Positions 1 through 46,705 of a stretch of 64,000 nt of DNA are shown piece after piece. The first letter of the stretch is position 1. Each line of letters opens with the position of its first letter. The translations under genes were made by a program, and so were the position numbers. The notes beneath the pieces are model-generated. The model was not told the origin of the DNA, did no database searches, and saw nothing but the letters and a program-made list of their open reading frames with translations. Source of the stretch: Agromyces tardus. GTDB lineage: Bacteria > Actinomycetota > Actinomycetes > Actinomycetales > Microbacteriaceae. Location: the NCBI RefSeq assembly GCF_003710805.1, contig NZ_RHHB01000001.1, positions 62,001 to 126,000 on the forward strand, given 5' to 3'.

Positions 1-312
1 AACGTCGACGGTGATCCGATCGGGGCACTGGACCGACTCTCCGAGGAAGACGCCGTGCGAATCCTCACGGTGCATAAGTGCAAAGGGCTGGAGTTCGAGA
101 AGGTCATCGTCCTGGGCGTTGAACCGCAGTTCTTCTGGGGCGATGACGATGCCGATGTGAAGGCGGAGTTCTTCGTGGCTATCTCCCGCGCCAAAGACGA
201 ACTAGTACTGACGACGGCGCAGAGCCGTCTGAAGCCCGCAGGGGCGGGATACCGCTGGAAGGTCGACTCGCCTCCGCACGAAGAGCTACTCGGGTATGCC
301 GATGGATCCTGA
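1..312 (+). CDS. C-terminal end of a UvrD/Rep-like SF1 helicase (partial)
   Basis: The reading frame is open from base 1 to a TGA at 310-312, so only the last 103 codons are in the window. VHKCKGLEF (visible residues 24-32) matches helicase motif V of the UvrD/Rep group (usually VHKsKGLEF), and VAISRA (59-64) matches motif VI, which holds the arginine finger. Proteins of this group are ATP-driven 3'-5' DNA translocases. After motif VI there is only a short tail. A second start codon (296 or 302) overlaps the stop, so the gene was translationally coupled to a downstream partner that is now truncated. Whether this was a repair helicase or part of a defence or mobile module cannot be told without the N-terminus. 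Confidence 0.85.
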   Translation, partial: NVDGDPIGALDRLSEEDAVRILTVHKCKGLEFEKVIVLGVEPQFFWGDDDADVKAEFFVAISRAKDELVLTTAQSRLKPAGAGYRWKVDSPPHEELLGYADGS

Positions 313-489
313 ATTGCGTCCAGGAGCCAGCCCGTACGATCCGGCGATGCTCCCAGAGCTTTACGTCGTCAACTTCGCCGAGCTTGAGCACACCACGAAA
401 GAGGATCCCTTCGTGCGTGAAGCCTTCGAGTTGCTGAAGAAAGCGTCGGTGCTATTGATCGCGGTGGCCGGTATTCGTACGGAAGGGCC
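296..489 (+). pseudogene. 5' remnant of an unknown gene coupled to the helicase
   Basis: A start at 296 or 302 overlaps the helicase stop and opens a frame whose first 62 or so codons resemble no family I recognise (acidic, with an FVREAFELLKKA helix). At about 489-490 the frame runs directly into methyltransferase sequence homologous to tmsB at 45280-46665. The unknown protein therefore lost everything downstream of this junction. Its overlap with the helicase gene suggests that the two once worked together. No function is assigned. Confidence 0.55.
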
Positions 490-1216
490 ACGGCTCGTCT
501 TCGAGAAGCTGCGGCTGAGCCCGGGAGACCGGCTGCTCGACGTGGGCTGCGGCTGGGGCGGCAGGGTGCGTCATGCGGCGCGCCGTGGCATCCGGGTCAC
601 GGGCGTGACGCTGTCGGAGGAGCAGGCGACGTGGGCGCAGCGCGCCACCGCCGACGAGGGCCTGGGCGAGCTCGCCGAGGTGCGTAACGGCGACACCGCG
701 ACATCCGCGACATCGGGTTCGACGCCACGTCGTCGATCGGGCTGCTCGAGCACATCGGGGTGCGCAACTACGCGAAGTACTTCCGCTTTCCTGCAGTCGC
801 GGCTGCGCACCGGCGGGCTGCTGCTGAACCACTGCATCACCCGGCCCGACAACACGTCCGAGCCCTCGACGCACGGGTTCATCGACCGCTACGTCTTCCC
901 CGACGGGGAGCTCACCGGGTCCGGCCGCATCATTAGCGAAGCGCAGGATGCCGGCCTCGAGGTGCTGCGCGAGGAGAACCTGCGCCCGCGCTACGCGATG
1001 ACGCTGCGCGACTGGTGCGCCAACCTCGTCGAGCACTGGGACGAGGCGGTCGACGAGGTCGGCCTTCCGACCGCGAAGGTATGGGGGCTCTACATGGCCG
1101 GCCCGCGGGTCCGGTCCGAGCGCGGCGGCATCCAGCTGCACCAGGTCCTCGCGGTGGAGCCGGACGACCGCGGCGGCGTCGGCGACCTGCCGCTGCGGCC
1201 GTGGTGGACGCCGTAG
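490..1216 (+). pseudogene. 3' fragment of a tmsB-like (CFA-synthase-type) methyltransferase gene, frameshifted
   Basis: This segment is a close copy of the 3' half of the intact methyltransferase at 45280-46665, starting at the LVFEKLRL block, keeping the SAM-binding LLDVGCGWGG and ending with the same LPLRPWWTP tail. The N-terminal half is missing. One base is lost near 695-696, where the intact gene reads GDYRDI, and one T is gained in the run at 787-789. Between them the correct protein (SSIGLLEHIGVRNY) lies in another frame. A 9-bp tandem repeat (cgcgacatc) at about 697-714 lies within the altered stretch. The frame is open throughout, but about 30 residues including the catalytic region are scrambled. 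The product should be inactive. Confidence 0.85.
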
Positions 1217-1243
1217 CCGGTCGGCCGGGGCCGCGGACGCAGG

Positions 1244-1669
1244 TCAGCTCCCGACGGCCGATTCCGTCGCCGCGGGCTCCCGCGGCGGGTTGAACATGAA
1301 CTCGAGGCGGATGCCGTTGTCGTCCTCGACGAAGGCGGCGTAGTAGCGGTCGTTGAAGCGCGGGAACGGCTTCGGGCCGCTCACCGCCGTCCAGCCGGCA
1401 TCCAGCGCGATTTGGTGCAGGCGGTCGACGTCGGCGCGCGAGTCGACGGGGAAGGCGAGGTGCTGCCATCCGACCTGGCCGTGTCGGTGCGGGCCAGTGC
1501 CGGGCTCGCGGGCGGGGAAGAGGATCAACTCCTCCTCACCGAGGTACCAGGAGACGCCGTTGTCGGCGTCCTGGCGGGTGCAGCCGAGCGCCTGCATCAC
1601 CGGGTCGAACTGGGCGATCGAACGGGGGAGGTCATCGACGGTGATGCCGATGTGGTCGAAGAGAGGCAC
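1244..1669 (-). CDS. VOC-family (glyoxalase/bleomycin-resistance fold) protein
   Basis: The 141-residue product is a single vicinal-oxygen-chelate domain. Its likely metal ligands are H6 in DHIGITVDD, H70 in GWQHLAF and E123 in RLEFMF, the usual His/His/Glu pattern. Such small proteins act as lyases, isomerases or dioxygenases, or bind antibiotics; the sequence does not decide between these. The start at 1669 faces the deaminase pseudogene, with a very short divergent spacer. The C-terminal extension is short and alanine-rich. It stands alone and looks intact although it lies between two damaged genes. Confidence 0.8.
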   Translation of the reverse strand: MPLFDHIGITVDDLPRSIAQFDPVMQALGCTRQDADNGVSWYLGEEELILFPAREPGTGPHRHGQVGWQHLAFPVDSRADVDRLHQIALDAGWTAVSGPKPFPRFNDRYYAAFVEDDNGIRLEFMFNPPREPAATESAVGS

Positions 1670-1725
1670 CGAGACATCCTATGGAAGAGGTGCCATCTCC
1701 AAGAGCACGCGCCAAGCTTGAAGGC

Positions 1726-2212
1726 ATGTCGATTTGCGAGACCGACCTCATCCATCTGCGCCGGGCGGTCGAGCTCGCGCGTGAAGCGGTCGCCGCCGGC
1801 GACGGCCCGTTCGGGTCGGTGCTCGTCGACGCGTCGGGCACGGTGCGGTTCGCCGACCGCAATCGGGAGGAGACGATGGGGGGATGCCACGCGGCATCCG
1901 GAGTTCGAGATCGCCCGCTGGGCGGCGACGAACCTGACCGCCGACGAGCGGGCGGCGGCCACGGTGTACACCTCGGGGGAGCACTGCCCGATGTGCTCGG
2001 CGGCGCACGCGTGGGTGGGGCTCGGGCGGATCGTCTACGTGGCGTCGGCGGAACAGATCAGCGGATGGCGCGCGGCGGCCGGCGCCGTGGCATCCGCTGT
2101 CGCTGTGTTGCCGATCACGGCCGTCGTGCCGGGGCTGCCGGTCGAGGGGCCGGTCGACGAACTCGTGCCCGAGGTGCGGGCGCTCATCGAACGCGCAGTT
2201 GGCTCCATCTAG
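1726..2212 (+). pseudogene. Nucleoside deaminase gene with a +1 frameshift
   Basis: The N-terminal part reads from ATG 1726 (MSICETDLIHLRRAVELA, then GDGPFGSVLVD). The C-terminal part continues in the next frame with ATRHPEFEIARWA and a zinc-ligand motif, GEHCPMC. The break is at a run of six Gs (1878-1883); the partial copy at 3630-3829 has five Gs there and reads through. Joined, the two parts give about 160 residues, the normal size of cytidine/guanine-deaminase-fold enzymes, with His of HPE and two Cys of HCPMC as zinc ligands and Glu as proton shuttle. Either the gene is dead, or the extra G is a sequencing error in a homopolymer. Confidence 0.8.
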
Positions 2213-2707
2213 CCGCCTGCGTTCGGCGGCCAGACCGAATCGAACCGCGATAGTCGGGTGCGCATCCGAGTCCATGGGGAGGCTGGATATCGGCCGAACG
2301 ACCGGCCTTCCTGCTCGTCGGCCACGCCGCGCGCGTGCCGCTCATCCACCACGGGCCGAACCCGCACATCCAGGCCCACATCGCCGCCTGGCCGGGCCGC
2401 GGCTCAAGTTCGAGCGCGGCGGCATCCAGCTGCACGAGGTCCTCGCGGTGACTGAATTCGGGGATACGTCGGGGTGAAGTCTCTGAAGCGGGGTAGCGGT
2501 GTGTCCTTCGATCGGAGATGGTGGTTATCTGCAGAAATCAAGTACCCGTTGGCAACCGAAGACGGCGCCACGGGCGCGACGCGCGGAGGCGCCGAAAGGA
2601 TCGGGACCCGCAACCGTTGCGTCGAACATGCCTCGCCGACCTGGCGCAGCATCCAACGCAAGATGGCCGGGCAGAGCCTCGGCTGAAGAGGAAACTGGAG
2701 GTCGGTC
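2213..2707. other. Gene-poor stretch with coding relics
   Basis: No intact gene is visible in these 495 bases. From 2254 to about 2388 one forward frame reads like coding sequence without a start (GHAARVPLIHHGPNPHIQA), from no family I can name. It runs into a third piece of methyltransferase sequence at 2389. From about 2455 to 2690 I see nothing recognisable. The ribosome-binding site of the next gene (GGAGG at about 2697) ends the stretch. Confidence 0.5.
2389..2454 (+). pseudogene. Short relic of the tmsB 3' end
   Basis: About 65 bases encode GPRLKFERGGIQLHEVLAV in the forward frame that starts at 2199. This matches the near-C-terminal segment of the intact methyltransferase (SRLAFETNGIQLHQVLAV) and the corresponding part of the larger fragment ending at 1216. 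Similarity stops after the valine codon, at an EcoRI-like gaattc, and does not reach the LPLRPWWTP tail. It is too short to function and shows that tmsB-type DNA was copied or rearranged here more than once. Confidence 0.65.
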
Positions 2708-3544
2708 ATGTCCTTTGTGACCACGGACGACGGTGCGGAGATCTACTTCAAGGACTGGGGCGACCGCGACGCCCAGCCCATCATGTTCCACCACGGGTGG
2801 CCCCTGTCTTCGGACGACTGGGACGCCCAAATGCTCTACTTCCTCGGAAAGGGGTACCGCGTCATCGCCAGCGACCGTCGCGGTCACGGCCGTTCGTCGC
2901 AGATCAGCACCGGCCACGACATGGACCACTACGCCAGCGATGCGTCCGCCGTCGTGGAGCACCTGGACCTGCGCAACGCGATCCACGTCGGCCACTCGAC
3001 CGGCGGAGGCCAGGTCGCCCGCTACGTCGCGAAACACGGCGAACCCCAGGGCCGCGTCGCCAAGGCCGTGCTCGTCGCGGCGGTTCCCCCGCTCATGGTC
3101 CAGACCGACGCGAACCCCGGAGGGCTGCCGATCTCGGTCTTCGACGGGTTCCGCAGCGCGCTGGCCGCCAACCGAGCCGAGTTCTTCCAGGCCGTCGCGT
3201 CGGGCCCGTTCTACGGCTTCAACCGTGAGGGGGCGACCGTATCGGAGCCGGTCGTCGCCAACTGGTGGCGTCAGGGCATGATGGGCAGCGCCCTCGCGCA
3301 CTACGAGGGCATCAAGGCATTCTCGGAGACCGACCAGACCGAGGACCTCAAGGCGATCTCGGTGCCTGTCCTCGTCCTCCAGGGCGACGATGACCAGATC
3401 GTGCCCTACCAGCAGGCCGCTCTCAAGCAGGACGAGCTCCTCAGCAACTCGACCCTCAAGATCTACGAGGGCTTCCCGCACGGGATGCTCACCACCCACG
3501 CGGACGTCCTCAACTCCGACATCCTCGCCTTCATCCAGCAGTAG
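2708..3544 (+). CDS. Alpha/beta hydrolase, cofactor-free haloperoxidase/perhydrolase type
   Basis: The 278-residue protein has the alpha/beta-hydrolase fold of the non-heme chloroperoxidase group, esterases that can also form peracids. Visible elements are the oxyanion strand MFHHGWPLSSDDW, the nucleophile elbow GHSTGGG with S97, the acid strand LVLQGDDDQI and the catalytic histidine in GFPHGM. The length is typical. The start is fixed by GGAGG about 6 bases upstream of ATG 2708. A strong hairpin follows the stop, so the gene is monocistronic. Codon use is typical of the region, and the gene looks intact between degraded neighbours. There is no signal peptide, so it should be cytosolic. The natural substrate is unknown. 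Confidence 0.88.
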   Translation: MSFVTTDDGAEIYFKDWGDRDAQPIMFHHGWPLSSDDWDAQMLYFLGKGYRVIASDRRGHGRSSQISTGHDMDHYASDASAVVEHLDLRNAIHVGHSTGGGQVARYVAKHGEPQGRVAKAVLVAAVPPLMVQTDANPGGLPISVFDGFRSALAANRAEFFQAVASGPFYGFNREGATVSEPVVANWWRQGMMGSALAHYEGIKAFSETDQTEDLKAISVPVLVLQGDDDQIVPYQQAALKQDELLSNSTLKIYEGFPHGMLTTHADVLNSDILAFIQQ

Positions 3545-3563
3545 CTCAGCTGCCGCGCGAGGA

Positions 3564-3607
3564 GGAGACGGCGTGCGCACGGGACAGCCCGTGTGCACGC
3601 CGTCTCC
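3564..3607 (+). terminator. Strong stem-loop after the haloperoxidase-type hydrolase gene
   Basis: Bases 3564-3583 pair with 3588-3607 to form a 20-bp stem with one G-T pair and a 4-base loop (acag). It lies 20 bases after the stop at 3544. There is no clear T-run, which is common in high-GC actinobacterial terminators. Confidence 0.75.
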
Positions 3608-3629
3608 GGTCTGTGGCGTGGGCGTATCG

Positions 3630-3829
3630 GCCGGGCGGTCGAGCTCGCGCGTGAAGCGCTCGCCGCCGGCGACGGCCCGTTCGGGTCGGTGCTCGTGGAT
3701 GCGGCCGGGGTCGAGCGGTTCGAGGACCGCAATCGAGAGGAGACGACGGGGGATGCCACGCGGCATCCGGAGTTCGAGATCGCCCGCTGGGCGGCGGCCA
3801 ACCTGACCGCCGACGAGCGGGCGGCGGCG
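3630..3829 (+). pseudogene. Truncated second copy of the nucleoside deaminase gene
   Basis: This stretch is nearly identical at DNA level to 1761-1960 of the frameshifted deaminase, sharing for example the 20 bases from GGGCGGTCGAGC onward. It encodes GRAVELAREALAAGDGPF to ANLTADERAAA in one frame, with the G-run intact. It has no start of its own, and it ends before the HCPMC zinc motif, at the 3' end of the SOUL gene. It cannot make an active enzyme. It records a partial duplication across about 1.9 kb. Confidence 0.85.
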
Positions 3830-3834
3830 CCGGA

Positions 3835-4392
3835 TCAGGCGGCGCGTTCCACCTCCACCTGCGCCTCGTTGTGGCGCAGGAACCAGGGCGTGAAGGGCGG
3901 GTCGAAACGCGCGAAACGCGGTTCGCCGCGGACCGGGAGCCCCGCGGAGGTCACCTTGGCGAGCAGTTCGTCGCGGTGCCGCTCCCACGACTCCCGCGTC
4001 CAGCGACCGCTGAACCGGAGTACGGCCACCAACTGCTCCGGCACCGTCCGCAACCTCACTTCGGGACGAGTGGGGATCGGCGCCTCGGCCTCAGTGATCC
4101 CCGCCGGCAGCACGAAGGCCACGGCATGCCCCTCACTGGTGCGCTCCTGCAGCACGGGCGCCGTCATCGCGATCTTCTCCGACGACTGCACCACCGGCGC
4201 CGTCATCTCGATCGACCGACGGGCGGCGTTCTCACCGCCGATGTACCCGACGAGCAGGCGAAAGGCCCGATTGCCGGCATCCTCGAACGGCACGCCCCGC
4301 ACAACGGTCTCGGCCACGACGTGTGACGGATAGCGGCGCACCTCCCACCCGTCATGCTCCTGGACGACGTCGAACGGCTGCTGCTCTGTCAC
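3835..4392 (-). CDS. SOUL-family heme-binding protein
   Basis: The 185-residue product matches the SOUL/HBP family along its whole length: VRRYPSHVVAETVV near the start, GNRAFRLLVGYIGGEN, the duplicated EMTAPV and AMTAPVL blocks that are the family hallmark, and a C-terminal FDPPFTPWFLRHNE. SOUL proteins bind heme or other tetrapyrroles through a hydrophobic cleft; bacterial roles are poorly defined. There is no signal peptide or membrane segment, so it is probably cytosolic. The stop lies a few bases from the truncated deaminase copy, suggesting that a rearrangement breakpoint fell just outside the gene. The upstream 4393-4648 holds no gene. Confidence 0.88.
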   Translation of the reverse strand: MTEQQPFDVVQEHDGWEVRRYPSHVVAETVVRGVPFEDAGNRAFRLLVGYIGGENAARRSIEMTAPVVQSSEKIAMTAPVLQERTSEGHAVAFVLPAGITEAEAPIPTRPEVRLRTVPEQLVAVLRFSGRWTRESWERHRDELLAKVTSAGLPVRGEPRFARFDPPFTPWFLRHNEAQVEVERAA

Positions 4393-4648
4393 CTTCCGAG
4401 GCTACGCCCGCTTTCGAGGTCATGGCCCCATGAAGGGATGCGGTCGCCCCATCCGCTCGCACATGTGGCGGAGGCCGAGGTACGTGTTGCGACGTTCCGT
4501 CGACATCTGAAGCAGCCGCCGGGTGGAGTCGGCAGGCGGCTCAGAGCCCCCAGCAGTAAGCGGCAGCCGACACGGTCGGCCCGACCGCGACGAGCGGACT
4601 CACGGCCCGTCCAGGCATCCGCTTCTGCCTCGCCTGTTGCGAGTCGGC

Positions 4649-6141: not shown

Positions 6142-7137
6142 GTGGAGACACTCGCTCCCCAGACCCGGGTGGAGGCGGCTCCGGCCGCCCCCACCCGGGG
6201 CCCCGGAGCCCCCACCCGGGGCCCCCACCGGCCGCGCCGGCACCTCAGCAAAGACCGGGGCGATCGTCGCTTCGCCCTGATGCTCCTGGCGCCGGCGGCC
6301 CTGTTCCTCGCGGCATTCGTGCTGTGGCCGCTCGTACGGTTCGTCTACGACAGCTTCTTCGAGATCTCCCCGTTCGCGGGAGCTCCGCGCACCTTCGTCG
6401 GGTTCGCGAACTACGCGACCGCGTTCGCGTCAGAAGCCTTCCAATCGGCGTCCGTGCGCACCGTCGTGTACACGGTCATCGTGGTGACGGCGGAGTTCGT
6501 GCTCGGACTGGCGGTCGCGCTGCTGTTCACGGCGCTCGGCCGGCGATCCACGTTCTTCCGCACGATGTTCATGTACCCGCTGATGATCGCGCCGGTGGTC
6601 GCAGGCCTCCTGTGGCGGTTCCTGCTGATCGACAACTTCGGCATCGTCAACCAGCTGCTTTTCGAGGCGGGCATCCTCTCCAGCCCCGACCAGATCCAGT
6701 GGCTGAGCGACCCCGACATCGCCCTGTTCTCGGTGGCGATCCCCGACATCTGGCTCACCACCTCGTTCATCACGCTCGTGCTCTTCGCCGGCCTGCAGAA
6801 CATCCCGGGCGACGTCATCGAGGCGGCACGCATCGACGGCGCGCGCTACCCGCGCATCCTGTTCAGCATCATCATCCCGCTGCTGCGACCGGTCATCGCC
6901 GTCGCGCTGATCGTGCGCGGCATCGACGCGGCCCGAGCGTTCGACATCATCCTGATCCAGACGGATGGCGGCCCGCAGGGCAGCACCACCACCCTCAGCC
7001 TGCTCATCTACCGCACCATGACGCGATTCGGCGATCCCGGACTCGCGAGCGCCATGGGCACCGTCTACCTCATCGTCATGCTGGCCGTGGCGATCTCCGC
7101 GATCCTGCTGATCTGGCGACCCGGGAGTGCACGATGA
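6142..7137 (+). CDS. ABC sugar permease, MalF/UgpA type
   Basis: This is an inner-membrane subunit of about 331 residues with six predicted segments, beginning ALMLLAPAALFLAAFVLWPL. The EAA loop, EAARIDGARYPRILFSIIIP, contacts the ATPase. GTG 6142 is chosen because AGAAGG lies 5 bases upstream and the frame continues straight from there; GTG 6136 is possible. The hydrophilic N-terminus holds a short repeat, PTRGPGAPTRGPH, from near-duplicate CACCCGGGGCCC DNA. It starts 23 bases after the binding-protein stop and overlaps the next permease by ATGA. No ATPase gene is in the operon; CUT1 systems of actinobacteria usually borrow a shared MsiK-type ATPase. Confidence 0.9.
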   Translation: METLAPQTRVEAAPAAPTRGPGAPTRGPHRPRRHLSKDRGDRRFALMLLAPAALFLAAFVLWPLVRFVYDSFFEISPFAGAPRTFVGFANYATAFASEAFQSASVRTVVYTVIVVTAEFVLGLAVALLFTALGRRSTFFRTMFMYPLMIAPVVAGLLWRFLLIDNFGIVNQLLFEAGILSSPDQIQWLSDPDIALFSVAIPDIWLTTSFITLVLFAGLQNIPGDVIEAARIDGARYPRILFSIIIPLLRPVIAVALIVRGIDAARAFDIILIQTDGGPQGSTTTLSLLIYRTMTRFGDPGLASAMGTVYLIVMLAVAISAILLIWRPGSAR

Positions 7138-9383: not shown

Positions 9384-10445
9384 ATGACGGGGAGCCGGGT
9401 GTCCGAGAAGACGAACGGGATCAGGGATGTCGCCGCGCGCGCCGGAGTTTCGCAGACCACGGTGTCGCACGTGCTCAACGAGACACCGCACACCCGGGTC
9501 AGCGAGGAGACCGCGGCGCGTGTCCGGGCCGCTGCCGAGGAGCTGGGATACCGGCCGAACCGCCTCGCCCGCGGCCTGCGCACGCACGCCTCGGACATGA
9601 TCGGCCTGCTGACCGAGGAGATCGCGACGACCCCGCACGCCGGTCGGATCATCCTGGGTGCGCAGGAGGAGGCCAGCCGCCGCAACCTGACGCTCGCGAT
9701 CATCAACTCCGAGCTGAACCCCGACCCCGAGGTGGACTCGACGCAGATCCAGGCGTTCCTCGACCGGCAGGCCGACGGCATCATCTACGCCACCGTGTAC
9801 CACGACGTGATCTCGCCGCCCGAGAACCTGCGGGTGCGCCCCGCGGTACTGATCGGCGCGCGAGACGAGGCCGGGTTGATCCCCGCCGTTTTGCCGGATG
9901 AACGTGGCGGCGCGGCATCCGTCGTGGACATGCTCGTCGCACGCGGCCACCGCCGCATCGCGTTCGCGGCCAGCGCCGACGACGTTCCGGCCACACGAGG
10001 GCGCCTGCGAGGCTACGTCGATGCGATGACCCGCGCCGGGCTCTCGACCGACGGGCTGATCGCCTCGGGCGGATCGGATGCCCGTGGCGGCTATACCGCG
10101 ACGCTCGAACTGCTCGATCGCGAACCCACGGCGGTGTTCTGCTACAACGACCGCATGGCCATGGGGGCCTATCGCGCAGCGGCCGACCGCGGCCTGCGGA
10201 TCCCCACCGACCTGTCGGTCGTGGGCTTCGACGACCAGGCTCCCCTTCCCGAGAGCCTGTTCCCCGCGTTGACGACGGTGGCGCTGCCGCACTACGAGAT
10301 GGGTGCCTGGGCGGTCGCGGCGCTCGCCGAGTCGATCCAGGGCAAGCAGGACGGATCGCTGCTCGCCGCGCATCCCACCGTGTTGAACTGCCCGCTGGTC
10401 GAGCGGGAATCCGTTGCGCCGCCTCGTGAGCGAGCCGGCGCCTGA
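9384..10445 (+). CDS. LacI-family transcriptional regulator of the fructan operon
   Basis: The 353-residue protein has an N-terminal LacI helix-turn-helix (IRDVAARAGVSQTTVSHVLN, about residues 13-32), a hinge helix region (RPNRLARGLRT) and a periplasmic-binding-protein-like effector domain ending DLSVVGFDDQAPLPESLFPA. ATG 9384 follows GAGG at 9372-9375. The gene lies inside the operon it most likely controls, 10 bases after the GH91 stop, so it would be autoregulated. Matching TGCCAAA-type palindromes sit at the operon promoter (4649-4726). The effector is probably fructose, a phosphorylated fructose or a difructose product. Confidence 0.9.
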   Translation: MTGSRVSEKTNGIRDVAARAGVSQTTVSHVLNETPHTRVSEETAARVRAAAEELGYRPNRLARGLRTHASDMIGLLTEEIATTPHAGRIILGAQEEASRRNLTLAIINSELNPDPEVDSTQIQAFLDRQADGIIYATVYHDVISPPENLRVRPAVLIGARDEAGLIPAVLPDERGGAASVVDMLVARGHRRIAFAASADDVPATRGRLRGYVDAMTRAGLSTDGLIASGGSDARGGYTATLELLDREPTAVFCYNDRMAMGAYRAAADRGLRIPTDLSVVGFDDQAPLPESLFPALTTVALPHYEMGAWAVAALAESIQGKQDGSLLAAHPTVLNCPLVERESVAPPRERAGA

Positions 10446-10453
10446 AGACACGG

Positions 10454-10493
10454 AGAGGTTCGGGCGGTCCCGCAGACCCTCGCCCGAACCTCT
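10454..10493 (+). terminator. Stem-loop between the lacI and GH32 genes
   Basis: AGAGGTTCGGGCG (10454-10466) pairs perfectly with CGCCCGAACCTCT (10481-10493) around a 14-base loop. It may partly terminate transcription, or stabilise the upstream message. No promoter is obvious between it and the GH32 start at 10517, so some read-through is likely. Confidence 0.6.
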
Positions 10494-10516
10494 TCGTCCC
10501 ACCAAGAGGACACCAC

Positions 10517-11749
10517 ATGAGACCGACCCTGCATTTCACCGCGCGCAGCGGGTGGATCAACGACCCCCACGGAATCACCTACCGTGACGGCCGGTACCAC
10601 GCGTTCTTCCAGTACGTGCCCGACCGCACGACGTGGGCACCCAACTGCCACTGGGGCCACGCGACCGGACCCGACCTCCTCTCGTTGACGGAGCACTCGG
10701 TGGCAATCGCACCGGGCGATGGCGATGACGGCATCTGGACCGGATGCCTCGTCGAGGACGGCGACGACGCCGTCATCTTCTACACCGCCACCACGGTTCC
10801 GGACTTCGGGATCGGCCGCATCCGTTCCGCTCGCCCGGTCGACGGGGAGTGGCGGGAATGGCGGAAGGGGGAGGTCGTGGTCGAGGCGCCCAGTGACCTC
10901 GACCTCATCGCGTTCCGTGACCCGTTCGTGCGCCGTGAGGGGTCGGGCTGGCGCATGTTCGTCGGTGCGGCCCACCGGGACGGCACCGCGATGGCACTGT
11001 CCTGGACGTCATCGGACCTGCGTTCCTGGAGCTACGACGGCGTGGCCTTGTCGCGTTCCACCTCCGAGCGCGAGCCGGTCTGGATGGGCGCCCTGTGGGA
11101 GTGCCCGCAGTTCTTCGAGGTCGACGGGGTCGACGTGATGGTCTCGTCGGTGTGGGATGCCGACGTGCTCCACTACGCCGGCTACGCGACCGGTGCGTAC
11201 CGGGAGGGCCGGTTCGACGCCGTCGGATGGGGCCGGCTGACCTATGGAGACGGCTACTACGCGCCCTCGTTCTTCTTCGACGCGGAGGGCCGCCCGTGCC
11301 TCTCGTTCTGGATCCGCGGCGTCGTCGACGAGCAGGCCGGCTGGGCGGGAGCGCACAGCGTGCCCTTCCGGCTCTCGATCGTCGACGGAGAGCTCGTCGC
11401 GACACCCCACCCGGATGTCGCCGCCCACCGGGGCGAACTCGCTGCCGACGGTCGCATCCCGGGTCTGACCGCCGACATCGAATGGGATGCCACGTCCGGC
11501 GAGCTGACCGTCGACTCCGGCGGGGAGCAGGTGGTCCGCGTCCTGCGGGCCTCCGAGACCGCGGTCGTCACGATCGGTGACGACGAGTCGATCGTGCCGG
11601 CATCCGGACCGCTGCGGATGATCGTCGACGGGCCCGTGTTCGAGCTCGCCTCCACCGCGGGCCTGTTCAGTGCAGCGCTCCGTCCGACGGGTGCGGATCT
11701 CCACGTGCGCGCCACCGCGGGAACGCTCGAGGTCTTCCCGATGCGGTAG
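10517..11749 (+). CDS. GH32 beta-fructosidase, intracellular
   Basis: The 410-residue protein shows the GH32 five-bladed propeller motifs. WINDPHG carries the nucleophile D16 (the common form is WINDPNG), FRDP carries the transition-state stabiliser D135, and WECP carries the acid/base E195. A shorter C-terminal beta-sandwich follows from about residue 290. There is no signal peptide, so it should act in the cytosol on imported fructo-oligosaccharides, releasing fructose from inulobiose, sucrose or similar sugars. It ends the fructan operon after a hairpin. AAGAGGA upstream of ATG 10517 is the ribosome-binding site. The Asn-to-His change in WINDPHG is the one notable departure from the family. 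Confidence 0.9.
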   Translation: MRPTLHFTARSGWINDPHGITYRDGRYHAFFQYVPDRTTWAPNCHWGHATGPDLLSLTEHSVAIAPGDGDDGIWTGCLVEDGDDAVIFYTATTVPDFGIGRIRSARPVDGEWREWRKGEVVVEAPSDLDLIAFRDPFVRREGSGWRMFVGAAHRDGTAMALSWTSSDLRSWSYDGVALSRSTSEREPVWMGALWECPQFFEVDGVDVMVSSVWDADVLHYAGYATGAYREGRFDAVGWGRLTYGDGYYAPSFFFDAEGRPCLSFWIRGVVDEQAGWAGAHSVPFRLSIVDGELVATPHPDVAAHRGELAADGRIPGLTADIEWDATSGELTVDSGGEQVVRVLRASETAVVTIGDDESIVPASGPLRMIVDGPVFELASTAGLFSAALRPTGADLHVRATAGTLEVFPMR

Positions 11750-43769: not shown

Positions 43770-43903
43770 GGCAGGCGGGCTCCTCATCGGATCGGGTGGG
43801 GTCCTTCGAGCGTACGTGGTCGCGGCGGCGAATGCGCTGGGGGCGGAGGGGCAGGCGGCGCAACCCCTCGCTTCCGGTGCTGCGCCGGGACTACCGTGGA
43901 GGC

Positions 43904-45283
43904 GTGTCCGCACCCGCGACCGACGCACCGGCCGCTCACGCCGACGGCGTGGAGCGCCTGCTCGCGAGCTATCGGGCGGTGCCGCCGTCGGCCCCGGTGC
44001 GGCTCGCCAAGCGCACCTCGAACCTGTTCCGCACGCGCGCGAAGGCCGAGGCGCCCGGCCTCGACACGTCGGGCCTCACGGGCGTCATCTCGGTCGACCC
44101 CGATGCGCGCACCGCCGACGTCGCCGGGATGTGCACCTACGAGGACCTCGTCGCGGCGACGCTGCCGCACGGCCTGGCGCCACTCGTGGTGCCGCAGCTG
44201 AAGACCATCACGCTCGGCGGCGCGGTCACCGGGCTGGGCATCGAGTCCACCTCGTTCCGGAACGGGCTGCCGCACGAGTCGGTGCTCGAGATGGACATCC
44301 TCACGGGCGCCGGCGAGGCGGTCACCGCGTCGCGCAGCGAGCACGCCGACCTGTTCCGCGCCTTCCCCAACTCGTACGGCACGCTCGGCTACGCGGTGCG
44401 CCTGCGCATCGAGCTCGAGCCGGTGCAGCCCGTCGTCGCGCTCACGCACCTGCGGTTCCACACGCTCCGCGAGCTGGTGGCGACGATGGACGGCATCGTC
44501 GAGACCGGCGCACTCGACGGAGTTCCCGTCGACTACCTCGACGGCGTGGTGTTCAGCGCCGACGAGAGCTACCTCTGCGTGGGCGTGCAGACCGCGGCAT
44601 CCGGCCCGGTCAGCGACTACACCCGCCAGCGGATCTACTACCGCTCGATCCAGCACGACGACGGCGCGACCCACGACCGGCTCACGATCCACGATTACCT
44701 CTGGCGGTGGGATGCCGACTGGTTCTGGTGCTCGGCGGCGTTCGGGGCGCAGCATCCGGTCGTTCGCCGGCTCTGGCCGCGGCGCTACCGCAACAGCGCG
44801 GCCTACTGGAAGCTGATGAAGCTCGAACGCCGGTTCGACATCGGGGATCGCCTCGAGCAGCTCAAGCGCCGCCCGCCGCGCGAACGCGTCGTGCAGGACA
44901 TCGAGGTGCCGGTCGAGCGGTGCGCCGAGTTCGTCGACTGGTTCCTCGCGAACGTGCCGATCGAGCCGATCTGGCTGTGCCCGCTGCGGTTGCGCGACGA
45001 CGAGGGCTGGCCGCTCTACCCCCTGCGCCCGAACCGCACGTACGTCAACGTCGGCTTCTGGTCGACGGTGCCGGTCGGTGCGACCGAAGGGGCGACGAAC
45101 CGGCGGATCGAGCGGAAGGTGAGCGAGCTCGACGGGCACAAGTCGCTCTACTCCGACGCCTACTACGAGCCCGACGAGTTCGACGAGCTCTACGGCGGCA
45201 CGACGTATCGGGCGGTGAAGCGGCGGTACGACCCCGATGCGCGACTCCTCGACCTCTACGCGAAGGCGGTGCAACGACGATGA
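43904..45283 (+). CDS. tmsA: FAD-dependent reductase of 10-methyl fatty-acid synthesis
   Basis: The 459-residue FAD-binding (glycolate-oxidase/DIM-like) protein contains GVISVDPDARTADVAGMCTY, YEDLVAATLPHGLAPLVVPQ, KTITLGGAVTGLGIESTSF and GLPHESVLEMDILTGAGE, the PP-loop and following FAD contacts. Its stop overlaps the methyltransferase start (ATGA). In actinobacteria this pair makes 10-methyl branched fatty acids: TmsB methylates C10 of a membrane oleoyl chain to a methylene, and TmsA reduces it. GTG 43904 has GGAGGC close upstream. The call rests on the pairing; alone it could pass as a sterol-reductase-like protein. Confidence 0.85.
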   Translation: MSAPATDAPAAHADGVERLLASYRAVPPSAPVRLAKRTSNLFRTRAKAEAPGLDTSGLTGVISVDPDARTADVAGMCTYEDLVAATLPHGLAPLVVPQLKTITLGGAVTGLGIESTSFRNGLPHESVLEMDILTGAGEAVTASRSEHADLFRAFPNSYGTLGYAVRLRIELEPVQPVVALTHLRFHTLRELVATMDGIVETGALDGVPVDYLDGVVFSADESYLCVGVQTAASGPVSDYTRQRIYYRSIQHDDGATHDRLTIHDYLWRWDADWFWCSAAFGAQHPVVRRLWPRRYRNSAAYWKLMKLERRFDIGDRLEQLKRRPPRERVVQDIEVPVERCAEFVDWFLANVPIEPIWLCPLRLRDDEGWPLYPLRPNRTYVNVGFWSTVPVGATEGATNRRIERKVSELDGHKSLYSDAYYEPDEFDELYGGTTYRAVKRRYDPDARLLDLYAKAVQRR

Positions 45284-46665
45284 CCTCGTTCAAGGAAGGC
45301 GCGCCCGAGACGGCGAAGCAGGCCGCGACGGCGGCGGCGCCGGTGGCGACGGCGGCGGTGCCGGATGCCACGGCGCGGGCGAACGCCGCCGGCAGGCTCA
45401 ACCTCGCCGAGATCCTGGAGATCTTCGCCGGCGGCAGGCTCCCGCTGCGATTCACCGCCTACGACGGGAGCTCGGCCGGACCACCCGACGCGCCGCTCGG
45501 GCTGGAACTGAAGTCGCCCCGCGGCACGACCTACCTCGCCACGGGCCGCGGCGATCTCGGGCTCGGCCGCGCCTACATCGCCGGCGACCTCGAGGTCCAC
45601 GGCGTGCATCCCGGCGACCCGTACGAGCTGCTCAAGGCGCTCACCGAGAGCCTCGAGTTCAAGCTGCCCTCGCCGAAGGTCATGGTCGAGGTGCTCCGTT
45701 CGATCGGACTCGAGCACCTGCGGCCGATCGCGCCGCCGCCGGAGGAGGCCCCGCCGCGGTGGCGACGGGTGGCTGCGGGGCTCCGGCACAGCAAGTCCCG
45801 CGACGCCGAGGCGATCCACCACCACTACGACGTGTCGAACACCTTCTACGAGTGGGTGCTCGGGCCGTCGATGACCTACACCTGCGCGTGCTACCCGCGC
45901 CCCGACGCATCCCTCGACGAAGCGCAGGAGAACAAGTACCGGCTCGTGTTCGAGAAGCTGCGCCTGAAGCGGGGCGACCAGCTGCTCGACGTCGGATGCG
46001 GCTGGGGCGGCATGGTGCGCTACGCCGCCCGGCACGGGGTGCGGGCCATCGGCGTGACGCTGTCGCGCGAACAGTCGACGTGGGCGCAGCAGGCGATCGT
46101 CGACGAGGGCCTGGCCGACCTCGCCGAGGTGCGCTACGGCGACTATCGCGACATCACCGAGTCGGGCTTCGACGCGGTGTCGTCGATCGGGCTGCTCGAG
46201 CACATCGGCGTGCGCAACTACGCCTCGTACTTCACGTTCCTGCAGTCCCGGCTGCGGCCCGGCGGGCTCCTGCTCAACCACTGCATCACCCGACCGGACA
46301 ACAAGCACGAAGCGTCGACCCGCGGCTTCATCGACCGCTACGTCTTCCCCGACGGCGAGATCACCGGCTCGGGCCGCATCATCACGGAGGCGCAGGACGT
46401 GGGCCTCGAGGTGCTGCACGAGGAGAACCTGCGCCTGCACTACGCGATGACGCTGCGCGACTGGTGCGCCAACCTCGTCGCGCACTGGGACGAGGCGGTC
46501 GCCGAGGTCGGCCTGCCGACCGCGAAGATCTGGGGCCTCTACATGGCCGGGTCGCGGCTCGCGTTCGAGACGAACGGCATCCAGCTGCACCAGGTGCTCG
46601 CGGTGCGGCCCGACGACCGCGGCGGCAACGGCGACCTGCCGTTGCGGCCGTGGTGGACGCCGTAG
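45280..46665 (+). CDS. tmsB: SAM-dependent lipid methyltransferase, TmsB/CFA-synthase type
   Basis: The 461-residue protein has an N-terminal domain (RLPLRFTAYDGSSAGPPD, AYIAGDLEVHGVHPGDPYEL), a HHHYDVSNTFYEWVLGPSMT segment with the family tyrosine, TCACYPRPDASLDEAQENK, the SAM site LLDVGCGWGGMVRYAARHG, and EHIGVRNYASYFTFLQSRL with the conserved catalytic block, ending in LPLRPWWTP. It should transfer methyl from SAM to phospholipid-bound oleate. The operon link to tmsA and the lack of a cyclopropane context favour 10-methyl over cyclopropane chemistry. Copies of its 3' part lie at 490-1216 and 2389-2454. Start ATG 45280 overlaps tmsA. Confidence 0.88.
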   Translation: MTSFKEGAPETAKQAATAAAPVATAAVPDATARANAAGRLNLAEILEIFAGGRLPLRFTAYDGSSAGPPDAPLGLELKSPRGTTYLATGRGDLGLGRAYIAGDLEVHGVHPGDPYELLKALTESLEFKLPSPKVMVEVLRSIGLEHLRPIAPPPEEAPPRWRRVAAGLRHSKSRDAEAIHHHYDVSNTFYEWVLGPSMTYTCACYPRPDASLDEAQENKYRLVFEKLRLKRGDQLLDVGCGWGGMVRYAARHGVRAIGVTLSREQSTWAQQAIVDEGLADLAEVRYGDYRDITESGFDAVSSIGLLEHIGVRNYASYFTFLQSRLRPGGLLLNHCITRPDNKHEASTRGFIDRYVFPDGEITGSGRIITEAQDVGLEVLHEENLRLHYAMTLRDWCANLVAHWDEAVAEVGLPTAKIWGLYMAGSRLAFETNGIQLHQVLAVRPDDRGGNGDLPLRPWWTP

Positions 46666-46705
46666 CCCCGAGGAACCTCGAACCTGCTTCGACCGAGGAG
46701 GCGCG

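Follow-up and report, generated by a model that had tools for sequence, protein, structure and literature searches.

How did a bacterial chromosome come to hold two broken pieces of a methyltransferase gene 43 kb away from an intact copy of that gene? The question is raised by a stretch of 64,000 nucleotides of Agromyces tardus (bases 62001–126000 of contig C1, in a draft genome of 4.06 Mb and 91 contigs), which we refer to in its whole length as the window. Two fragments resembling the 3′ end of tmsB lie near its left end, and an intact tmsB, preceded by tmsA, is found further to the right. In a preliminary description of this DNA the fragments were taken for copies of the resident gene, or for what was left of a former tms locus in the same spot. 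The analysis presented here indicates that they are quite probably the debris of a foreign tmsB that was brought in by transfer, cut at the edge of an island carrying the Gabija defence system, and decayed. Telling a copy of a genome's own gene apart from the wreck of a neighbour's gene shifts the story from duplication to exchange.

A search of positions 1–4500 against the window (blastn) aligned the larger piece, hereafter the relic (491–1218), with 45940–46667 at 85.1% identity over 730 columns (E 0.0), and the smaller scrap (2389–2450) with 46544–46605 in the intact gene at 83.9% (E 1e-12). Both matches are well above chance level, and the two pieces reported earlier are real, with small corrections of their bounds: the relic starts at 491 instead of 490, and the scrap ends at 2450 instead of 2454. 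Alignment of the three pieces at the DNA level, which had been proposed as a check, places the scrap nearer to the relic (90.3% to 1095–1156, E 3.6e-18) than to the intact gene; its identity to genome G011 is 93.5%. Elsewhere in the genome, only matches of 33–48 bases were found beyond the intact gene, the relic and the scrap.

The relic lacks the 5′ half of tmsB, and the front of its CMAS domain is gone (profile positions 52–273 of 273, with a score of 169.8 bits vs. 326.6 bits for the intact gene). Compared with six related tmsB genes it has lost one base after 694 and gained one at 787, the same loss and gain that had been read from the sequence before, and approximately 31 codons between these points are scrambled in the open reading frame (ORF) 296–1216, which is still open because the two changes cancel out. 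With its 5′ half absent and its frame shifted, the relic is a pseudogene of the CMAS/BfaB methyltransferase family. Its substitutions show less bias to codon position 3 (20:19) than those of the six genes pooled (26:59; Fisher p 0.03).

Matches to the whole 3′ half of tmsB were present in 37 of the 60 genomes searched, all from the genus and one of them the window's own; in one more (G052) the match ends at a contig end. The tmsB genes of six congeners (G007, G032, G011, G025, G012, and G029) are designated here as the N type. To these six the relic is 90.9–92.4% identical, with G007 at the top (92.4%), vs. 85.5% to the resident tmsB and 82–86% over a set of the remaining 30 congeners plus the resident gene. 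In a tree of the 3′ halves (IQ-TREE, 35 rows; G052 was left out as its match ends at the contig end, and G026, G049, and G058 have tmsB but are absent from the tmsB trees), the relic and the six N-type genes form one group with a support of 100/99, and the best tree in which the relic and the resident gene are sisters has a log-likelihood 59 lower (p-AU 4.5e-5). The claim that fragments of the resident gene were copied is contradicted by these results. The position of the relic as sister to the six, which bears on the direction of transfer, has a support of 89/72 only. Where the listed tmsB matches extend as far as the joint, homology of the relic to congener tmsB begins at 491. An N-type protein has its nearest named matches in Agromyces binzhouensis, A. 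luteolus, and A. kandeliae (94–96%).

The N type also has a place of its own in the genome. In all six carriers nrdHIEF or nrdEF is followed by a variable slot and then by tmsA and tmsB; mapping of the DNA downstream of nrdF in 46 relatives found N-type tmsA and tmsB there in six, which are all of the N-type carriers. A frame script that gives the longest frame only reports tmsB as open in the six and tmsA only for G011; tmsA is shown open in G007 and G011, and the other four have a full-length match. An intact tmsB at the homologous place in relatives, for which the preliminary description had advised to look, is therefore found in the slot downstream of nrdF in six congeners. Its suggestion of an older tms locus holds in so far as such a locus exists here in relatives; the allele is a different one, neither source nor ancestor of the gene at 45280. 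Ordinary tmsB genes lie on the same contig and strand as nrdEF in 24 of 30 congeners, approximately 12–110 kb downstream, and on another contig in the remaining six.

As a core reference we used rpoB and gyrB only (5292 columns, 30 genomes). By these genes the window's genome is 94.2% identical to G037 and 90.5–92.0% to the six, and in the tree it falls outside the group of eight that holds the six (0.987). In a control fit of tmsB 3′-half identity to core identity (276 pairs of ordinary copies, residual standard deviation (SD) 1.50), the relic and the N type lie 3.8–4.8 SD above the line, vs. −0.2 to 1.2 for the resident gene and the N type, and none of the 153 ordinary pairs in the same core range exceeds 89.8%. 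The neighbours of the relic point the same way. The alpha/beta-hydrolase (abhydrolase) block is 95.7% identical to G007 and 94.8% to G011, the next best abhydrolase in the 60 genomes reaching 85%, and among the matches listed there is no other SOUL match of any length. In G007 the same abhydrolase and SOUL genes as at 2452–4426 follow tmsB after approximately 50 bases, and the identity of both to G007 (95–96%) is above that of nrdEF (91%) and of rpoB and gyrB (92%). Over the congeners the nrdEF of the window's genome is 87–92% identical, save G017 (76–79%), a second copy in G021 (82–86%) and G052 (no match). Since the window's species lies outside the N-type group by rpoB and gyrB, yet the relic and its neighbours match that group, these most likely came by horizontal transfer from it.

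The resident tmsB overlaps tmsA by 4 bases, and the homology of this tmsA to other tmsA genes begins at approximately 43888. The 3′ half of the resident tmsB is 84–89% identical to the other intact tmsB genes compared, as core divergence predicts. The pair is probably the native copy, being at an ordinary distance from other copies, and this native status is the weaker half of the transfer claim. The reverse arrangement, with a native relic and a newly arrived intact copy, was abandoned, as rpoB and gyrB put the genome nearest to G037 and not with the six.

Table 1. Features at the left end of the window and the resident tms genes (positions in the window).
Feature	Position	Strand	Basis
3′ end of gajB (UvrD-type helicase of Gabija)	1..312	+	PADLOC GajB 2.1e-189; Pfam UvrD_C
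65-aa head of the gene behind gajB, severed at the joint	296..490	+	Fused in frame to the tmsB remnant
tmsB remnant (3′ half), pseudogene, N type	491..1218	+	blastn, tree, frame comparison
VOC/glyoxalase-family gene	1244..1669	-	Pfam Glyoxalase; 91.6% to G029
Deaminase-like gene, frame broken	1684..2210	+	Weak Pfam deaminase matches (best 0.00085)
Scrap of putative AraC-type regulator gene	2295..2394	+	Open behind the deaminase in G022 (L157:7745-8629)
Second tmsB 3′ scrap	2389..2450	+	blastn; collinear with the abhydrolase block, as tmsB in G007 and G011
Spacer and alpha/beta-hydrolase gene (ORF 2708-3544)	2452..3615	+	Closely shared with G007 and G011
Deaminase scrap	3630..3829	+	Separates the abhydrolase and SOUL blocks, which are directly adjacent in G007
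SOUL heme-binding-family gene	3835..4392	-	Pfam SOUL; 95.6% to G007
Resident tmsA (FAD-binding oxidoreductase)	43796..45283	+	Pfam FAD_binding_4
Resident intact tmsB (CMAS family), 461 aa	45280..46665	+	Pfam CMAS 1.5e-97

On the left side of the joint at 491 lies DNA of a different kind. The helicase gene gajB begins before the window (L009:16654-18312) and is preceded by gajA (L009:14717-16657; PADLOC GajA 3.9e-240); by their sequences, these adjacent OLD-like and UvrD-like genes are assigned to Gabija. They are part of an island directly left of the window (C1:54450-62490; L009:10450-18490) that follows nrdHIEF; behind nrdF it carries, in order, a candidate defence gene (PDC-S59), an ORF of 638 aa that has no assigned family, and the Gabija genes gajA and gajB. 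The start of ORF 296–1216 overlaps the last 17 bases of gajB, and the frame continues into tmsB. The fusion to an unrelated 5′ gene described earlier is thus upheld, and its 5′ partner can now be named as the last ORF of the Gabija-bearing island, joined to tmsB at 491. The 65-aa head has no match in Pfam, PHROGs or PADLOC (the last run with 64 aa), nor in the other 395 of the 396 genomes of the order, and as it has no relatives there, the island side of the joint cannot be read. The GC content is approximately 0.57–0.65 from the nrd genes to the joint (approximately 0.63 beside it) and 0.72 in the relic.

Within the 59 congeners, the 8 kb of island DNA (tmsB apart) has no match longer than approximately 255 bases, and neither a donor of the Gabija side nor a strain with an empty site was found. 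A stretch of approximately 210 bases between the 638-aa ORF and gajA (L009:13977-14188) is 71–74% identical to places in G049, G036, G010, G006, G007, and G031; it holds no tRNA (ARAGORN) and has no Rfam match up to E 1. A tRNA-linked island was rejected, as L009 and L010 (39.5 kb) contain no tRNA. Copying by a transposon or insertion sequence was rejected as well: in line with the earlier remark that no transposase was left, none was found, nor an integrase, among the ORFs of the island and the relic region scanned with Pfam and PHROGs, although terminal repeats were not searched systematically.

To the right of the joint, the order is tmsB half, VOC, deaminase, AraC scrap, tmsB scrap, abhydrolase, deaminase scrap, and SOUL. 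These 4 kb hold at least four gene scraps: the two tmsB pieces, one of the deaminase gene and one of AraC type. The deaminase-like gene has one extra G in a run of G near 1877–1882, which could be decay or a sequencing error, and its counterpart is open in G007 (L041:18830-19315); 3630–3828 is a 91.5% copy of part of it (1760–1959, blastn). The family name of the AraC-type scrap was read from the sequence, without a profile search. The VOC-deaminase-AraC order is that of G022, and the tmsB-abhydrolase-SOUL order that of G007, so that two arrangements that are separate in other species stand side by side in the window. Shared bases at the three inner joints examined are few (approximately 4 at AraC/tmsB, 0–1 at tmsB/abhydrolase, and 0 at deaminase/SOUL), and at least two joining events would be needed for the mosaic.

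We propose that DNA of the N-type group, with tmsB, the abhydrolase and SOUL genes, and perhaps the VOC and deaminase genes, entered the slot downstream of nrdHIEF. The Gabija island now ends inside the N-type tmsB at 491, and tmsA and the first half of tmsB are gone; the island would either have severed them after the arrival of this DNA or have come already joined to it. The remnant would then have decayed, as the function was in this proposal kept by the native tmsAB pair, 43 kb downstream. The joining may have occurred by illegitimate recombination, possibly aided by homology on one side. The direction of transfer, the order of events, decay under native cover and illegitimate joining are parts of this scheme that we infer.

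Several observations weigh against the transfer reading. The codon-position test is weak, since a working gene, that of G007 alone, gives 10:11 and the resident gene 40:40 with the same consensus, and the difference between the 20 of 39 of the relic and the neutral value of 2/3 falls just short (p 0.06). The species tree rests on two genes, and the position of the window's genome (G000) within its own part of that tree is weak (0.42); in the gene trees the resident copy is not placed with good support, and its description as native rests on its ordinary distance. The N-type genes are too alike among themselves as well, by 4.5–6.3 SD. Probably the type has also been exchanged inside its group, or else it changes slowly; the excess likeness could mean slow evolution as well as transfer. 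The VOC, deaminase and AraC pieces (88–92%) are within core identity. The nrdEF genes are also low in GC (0.62–0.65), so that GC marks the right edge of the island and not the left. Finally, the order of events and the donor of the island are not visible in the data.

The strongest rival, which we nevertheless regard as unlikely, is an ancient state of two copies: the ancestor of the genus would have had both tmsAB loci, of which one or the other was lost in different lineages, and the relic would be inherited vertically. It draws on G018, which has a distant intact copy together with a 79-base scrap whose identity is 84% to the relic and G011 but 78% to the gene of its own genome, and on the N type joining, in the 3′-half tree (86/93), the ordinary copies of G018, G031, and G056, genomes that are near its carriers in the core tree. 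The nearest core relative, G037, also has a scrap of 165 bases of the start of tmsA downstream of nrdF, but this is nearer to G018, G031 and its own gene (83–85%) than to the N type (78–81%), and two other near core relatives, G053 and G045, lack tms scraps over 20 kb of DNA behind nrdF. Under vertical descent the divergence from the N type should moreover equal core divergence, yet it is too small by the 3.8–4.8 SD given above, and no genome among the 60 has two whole tmsB copies.

Far less credible is a functional new protein, in which the Gabija-side head and the methyltransferase tail make up a new enzyme or defence effector; ORF 296–1216 is open for 306 codons and starts within the end of gajB, but the scrambled codons lie in the methyltransferase core, the CMAS domain has lost its front part, and no relative of the head is present in 395 genomes. 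An artefact of assembly or sequencing, for which the draft state of the genome could speak, is highly improbable, as the joint lies deep inside a contig of 417,570 bases, the two tmsB scraps are 10% apart, and the piece is identical to nothing else found in the genome, which leaves no repeat to cause a misjoin. Duplication of part of the resident tmsB within this genome, followed by divergence, has in its favor the 85% identity in one genome and is as improbable, as identity to six other species is 5–7 points higher, the tree and the AU test reject it, and these species share the neighbours and have their tmsB of the relic's type at the same place. The transfer of an N-type tmsB is, in our view, the best explanation of the pieces.

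The slot behind nrdF carries defence genes in other congeners also, with matches to CBASS-type cyclases, Thoeris, a Pycsar cyclase, AbiU, LmuB or NsnA. When eight defence-looking ORFs were picked from six other genomes, seven had PADLOC matches (PDC-S59, CBASS-type cyclases in two genomes, ThsA, ThsB, NsnA, and one weak PDC-S66). A crude script called 38 first ORFs behind nrdF; the nine with a GC content below 0.63 were scanned, and five matched PADLOC (AbiU, PycC, LmuB, PDC-S59, and one weak PDC-S23). The slot is thus likely a genus-wide defence hotspot, which, for chosen ORFs without a control set, is a strong lead and not a measured enrichment. Our literature search found no paper on an nrdF defence hotspot, on Gabija in Agromyces or on short-patch double illegitimate recombination, and nothing on the tmsB methyltransferase with tuberculostearic acid, which is no proof of absence in print.

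Gene scraps recur along this slot. That they are commoner downstream of nrdF than elsewhere was not established against matched random regions: direct repeats of 40–700 bases were present in 5 of 20 nrdF regions vs. 2 of 20 regions drawn at random from these genomes (Fisher p 0.41; Mann-Whitney p 0.13). With the other 27 regions added (14 of 27, including the window's own, unmatched by genome and some of them shorter), the count is 19 of 47 vs. 2 of 20 (p 0.02). The tmsB tails that reach the end of the gene begin 52–87 bases before it, and the nrdF tails of G045 and G058 approximately 42–318 bases before theirs, positions that fit a random or a fixed break point alike and do not decide between them. 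The tmsB tails in G007, G012, G029, and G018 are each followed after 3–18 bases by the same SRPBCC-ArsR pair and are, for this reason, probably one inherited joint and not four events. Judged by its sequence, G018 is a parallel case to the relic, with intact tmsAB approximately 49 kb from nrdF and its 79-base tail, a short stretch, 77 bases behind nrdF. Pieces from the interior of a gene, as opposed to tails, are those of nrdF in G027 and G038 and the second one of tmsB in G012.

Other arrangements in these regions are of interest in themselves. In G011 approximately 4 kb separates tmsA (L046:6144-7561) and tmsB (L046:802-2201), on the minus strand (L045 and L046), and a repeat of the final 38 bases of tmsA stands directly before tmsB, an arrangement that has the form of an insertion between two overlapping operon genes with the tail kept. 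Genome G025 has a second, partial tmsA (L047:7610-8509; the first 888 of 1396 bases) approximately 4 kb upstream of the whole tmsAB in the same slot. In G045 three nrdF 3′ tails (L162:5173-5486, 6629-6668, and 10270-10554; 88–92% to the nrdF of the window's genome) lie approximately 5, 6 and 10 kb downstream of nrdF, and G058 has one tail. Between the nrdE and nrdF matches (L009:9291-9336), a stretch of approximately 40 bases belongs to a dispersed repeat family with many copies, often at 94–100%, in this genome and in further members of the genus, several of them close together at C1:300018-300213 and C1:306975-307134.

A broader reading would take the 3′ ends of nrdF, tmsA and tmsB as recurring docking edges for defence genes and other cargo that are added without a recombinase, by homology on one side and an illegitimate joint on the other, each addition leaving a tail of the anchor gene further downstream. 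Its fossils would be the relic, the tmsB tails in G007, G012, G029, G018, and G045, the tmsA tail in G011 and the nrdF tails in G045 and G058. We put this forward tentatively, as an unlikely proposal. The corrected reading of the two pieces describes an ordinary kind of gene-exchange event with a clear record, and the nrdF slot is the more interesting lead: different species of one genus seem to keep different phage-defence systems there, and the gene scraps along it may record the gain and loss of cargo without integrases.

In xenologous gene displacement, the usual picture is that the incoming version wins. The window resembles this process in holding two unlike versions of one gene, one of them broken and the intact one presumably functional, and differs from it in that the broken version resembles another species group and the resident stayed. 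As a Gabija defence island, with gajA and gajB adjacent and beside the candidate defence gene PDC-S59, the case is not unusual; it is relevant here since its edge is the joint at 491. The resident tmsAB pair is predicted to be a set of 10-methyl fatty-acid genes by its likeness to the bfaAB/tms operon for 10-methylstearic (tuberculostearic) acid, in which an FAD-binding oxidoreductase gene and a CMAS-family methyltransferase gene are adjacent (PMC5660069; PMC7791843). The FAD gene comes first in the window, unlike cloned operons described in PMC7791843 that begin with bfaB; the same paper gives 0% conversion in E. coli for the operon of Agromyces subbeticus. A parallel to the joints themselves concerns the type VI secretion system immunity genes of Vibrio cholerae, for which PMC5361080 proposes displacement arrays that arise by homology-facilitated illegitimate recombination: cargo enters beside a conserved anchor, old 3′ ends are displaced downstream, and no integrase is known. 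An illegitimate joint on one side is common to that description and to the window, whose inner joints share 0–4 bases, while nrdF or tmsAB would serve as the anchor in the present case, phage defence makes up the cargo, and the homologous side is not seen in this genome. By this analogy, a displacement process of the V. cholerae type may have acted at the window.

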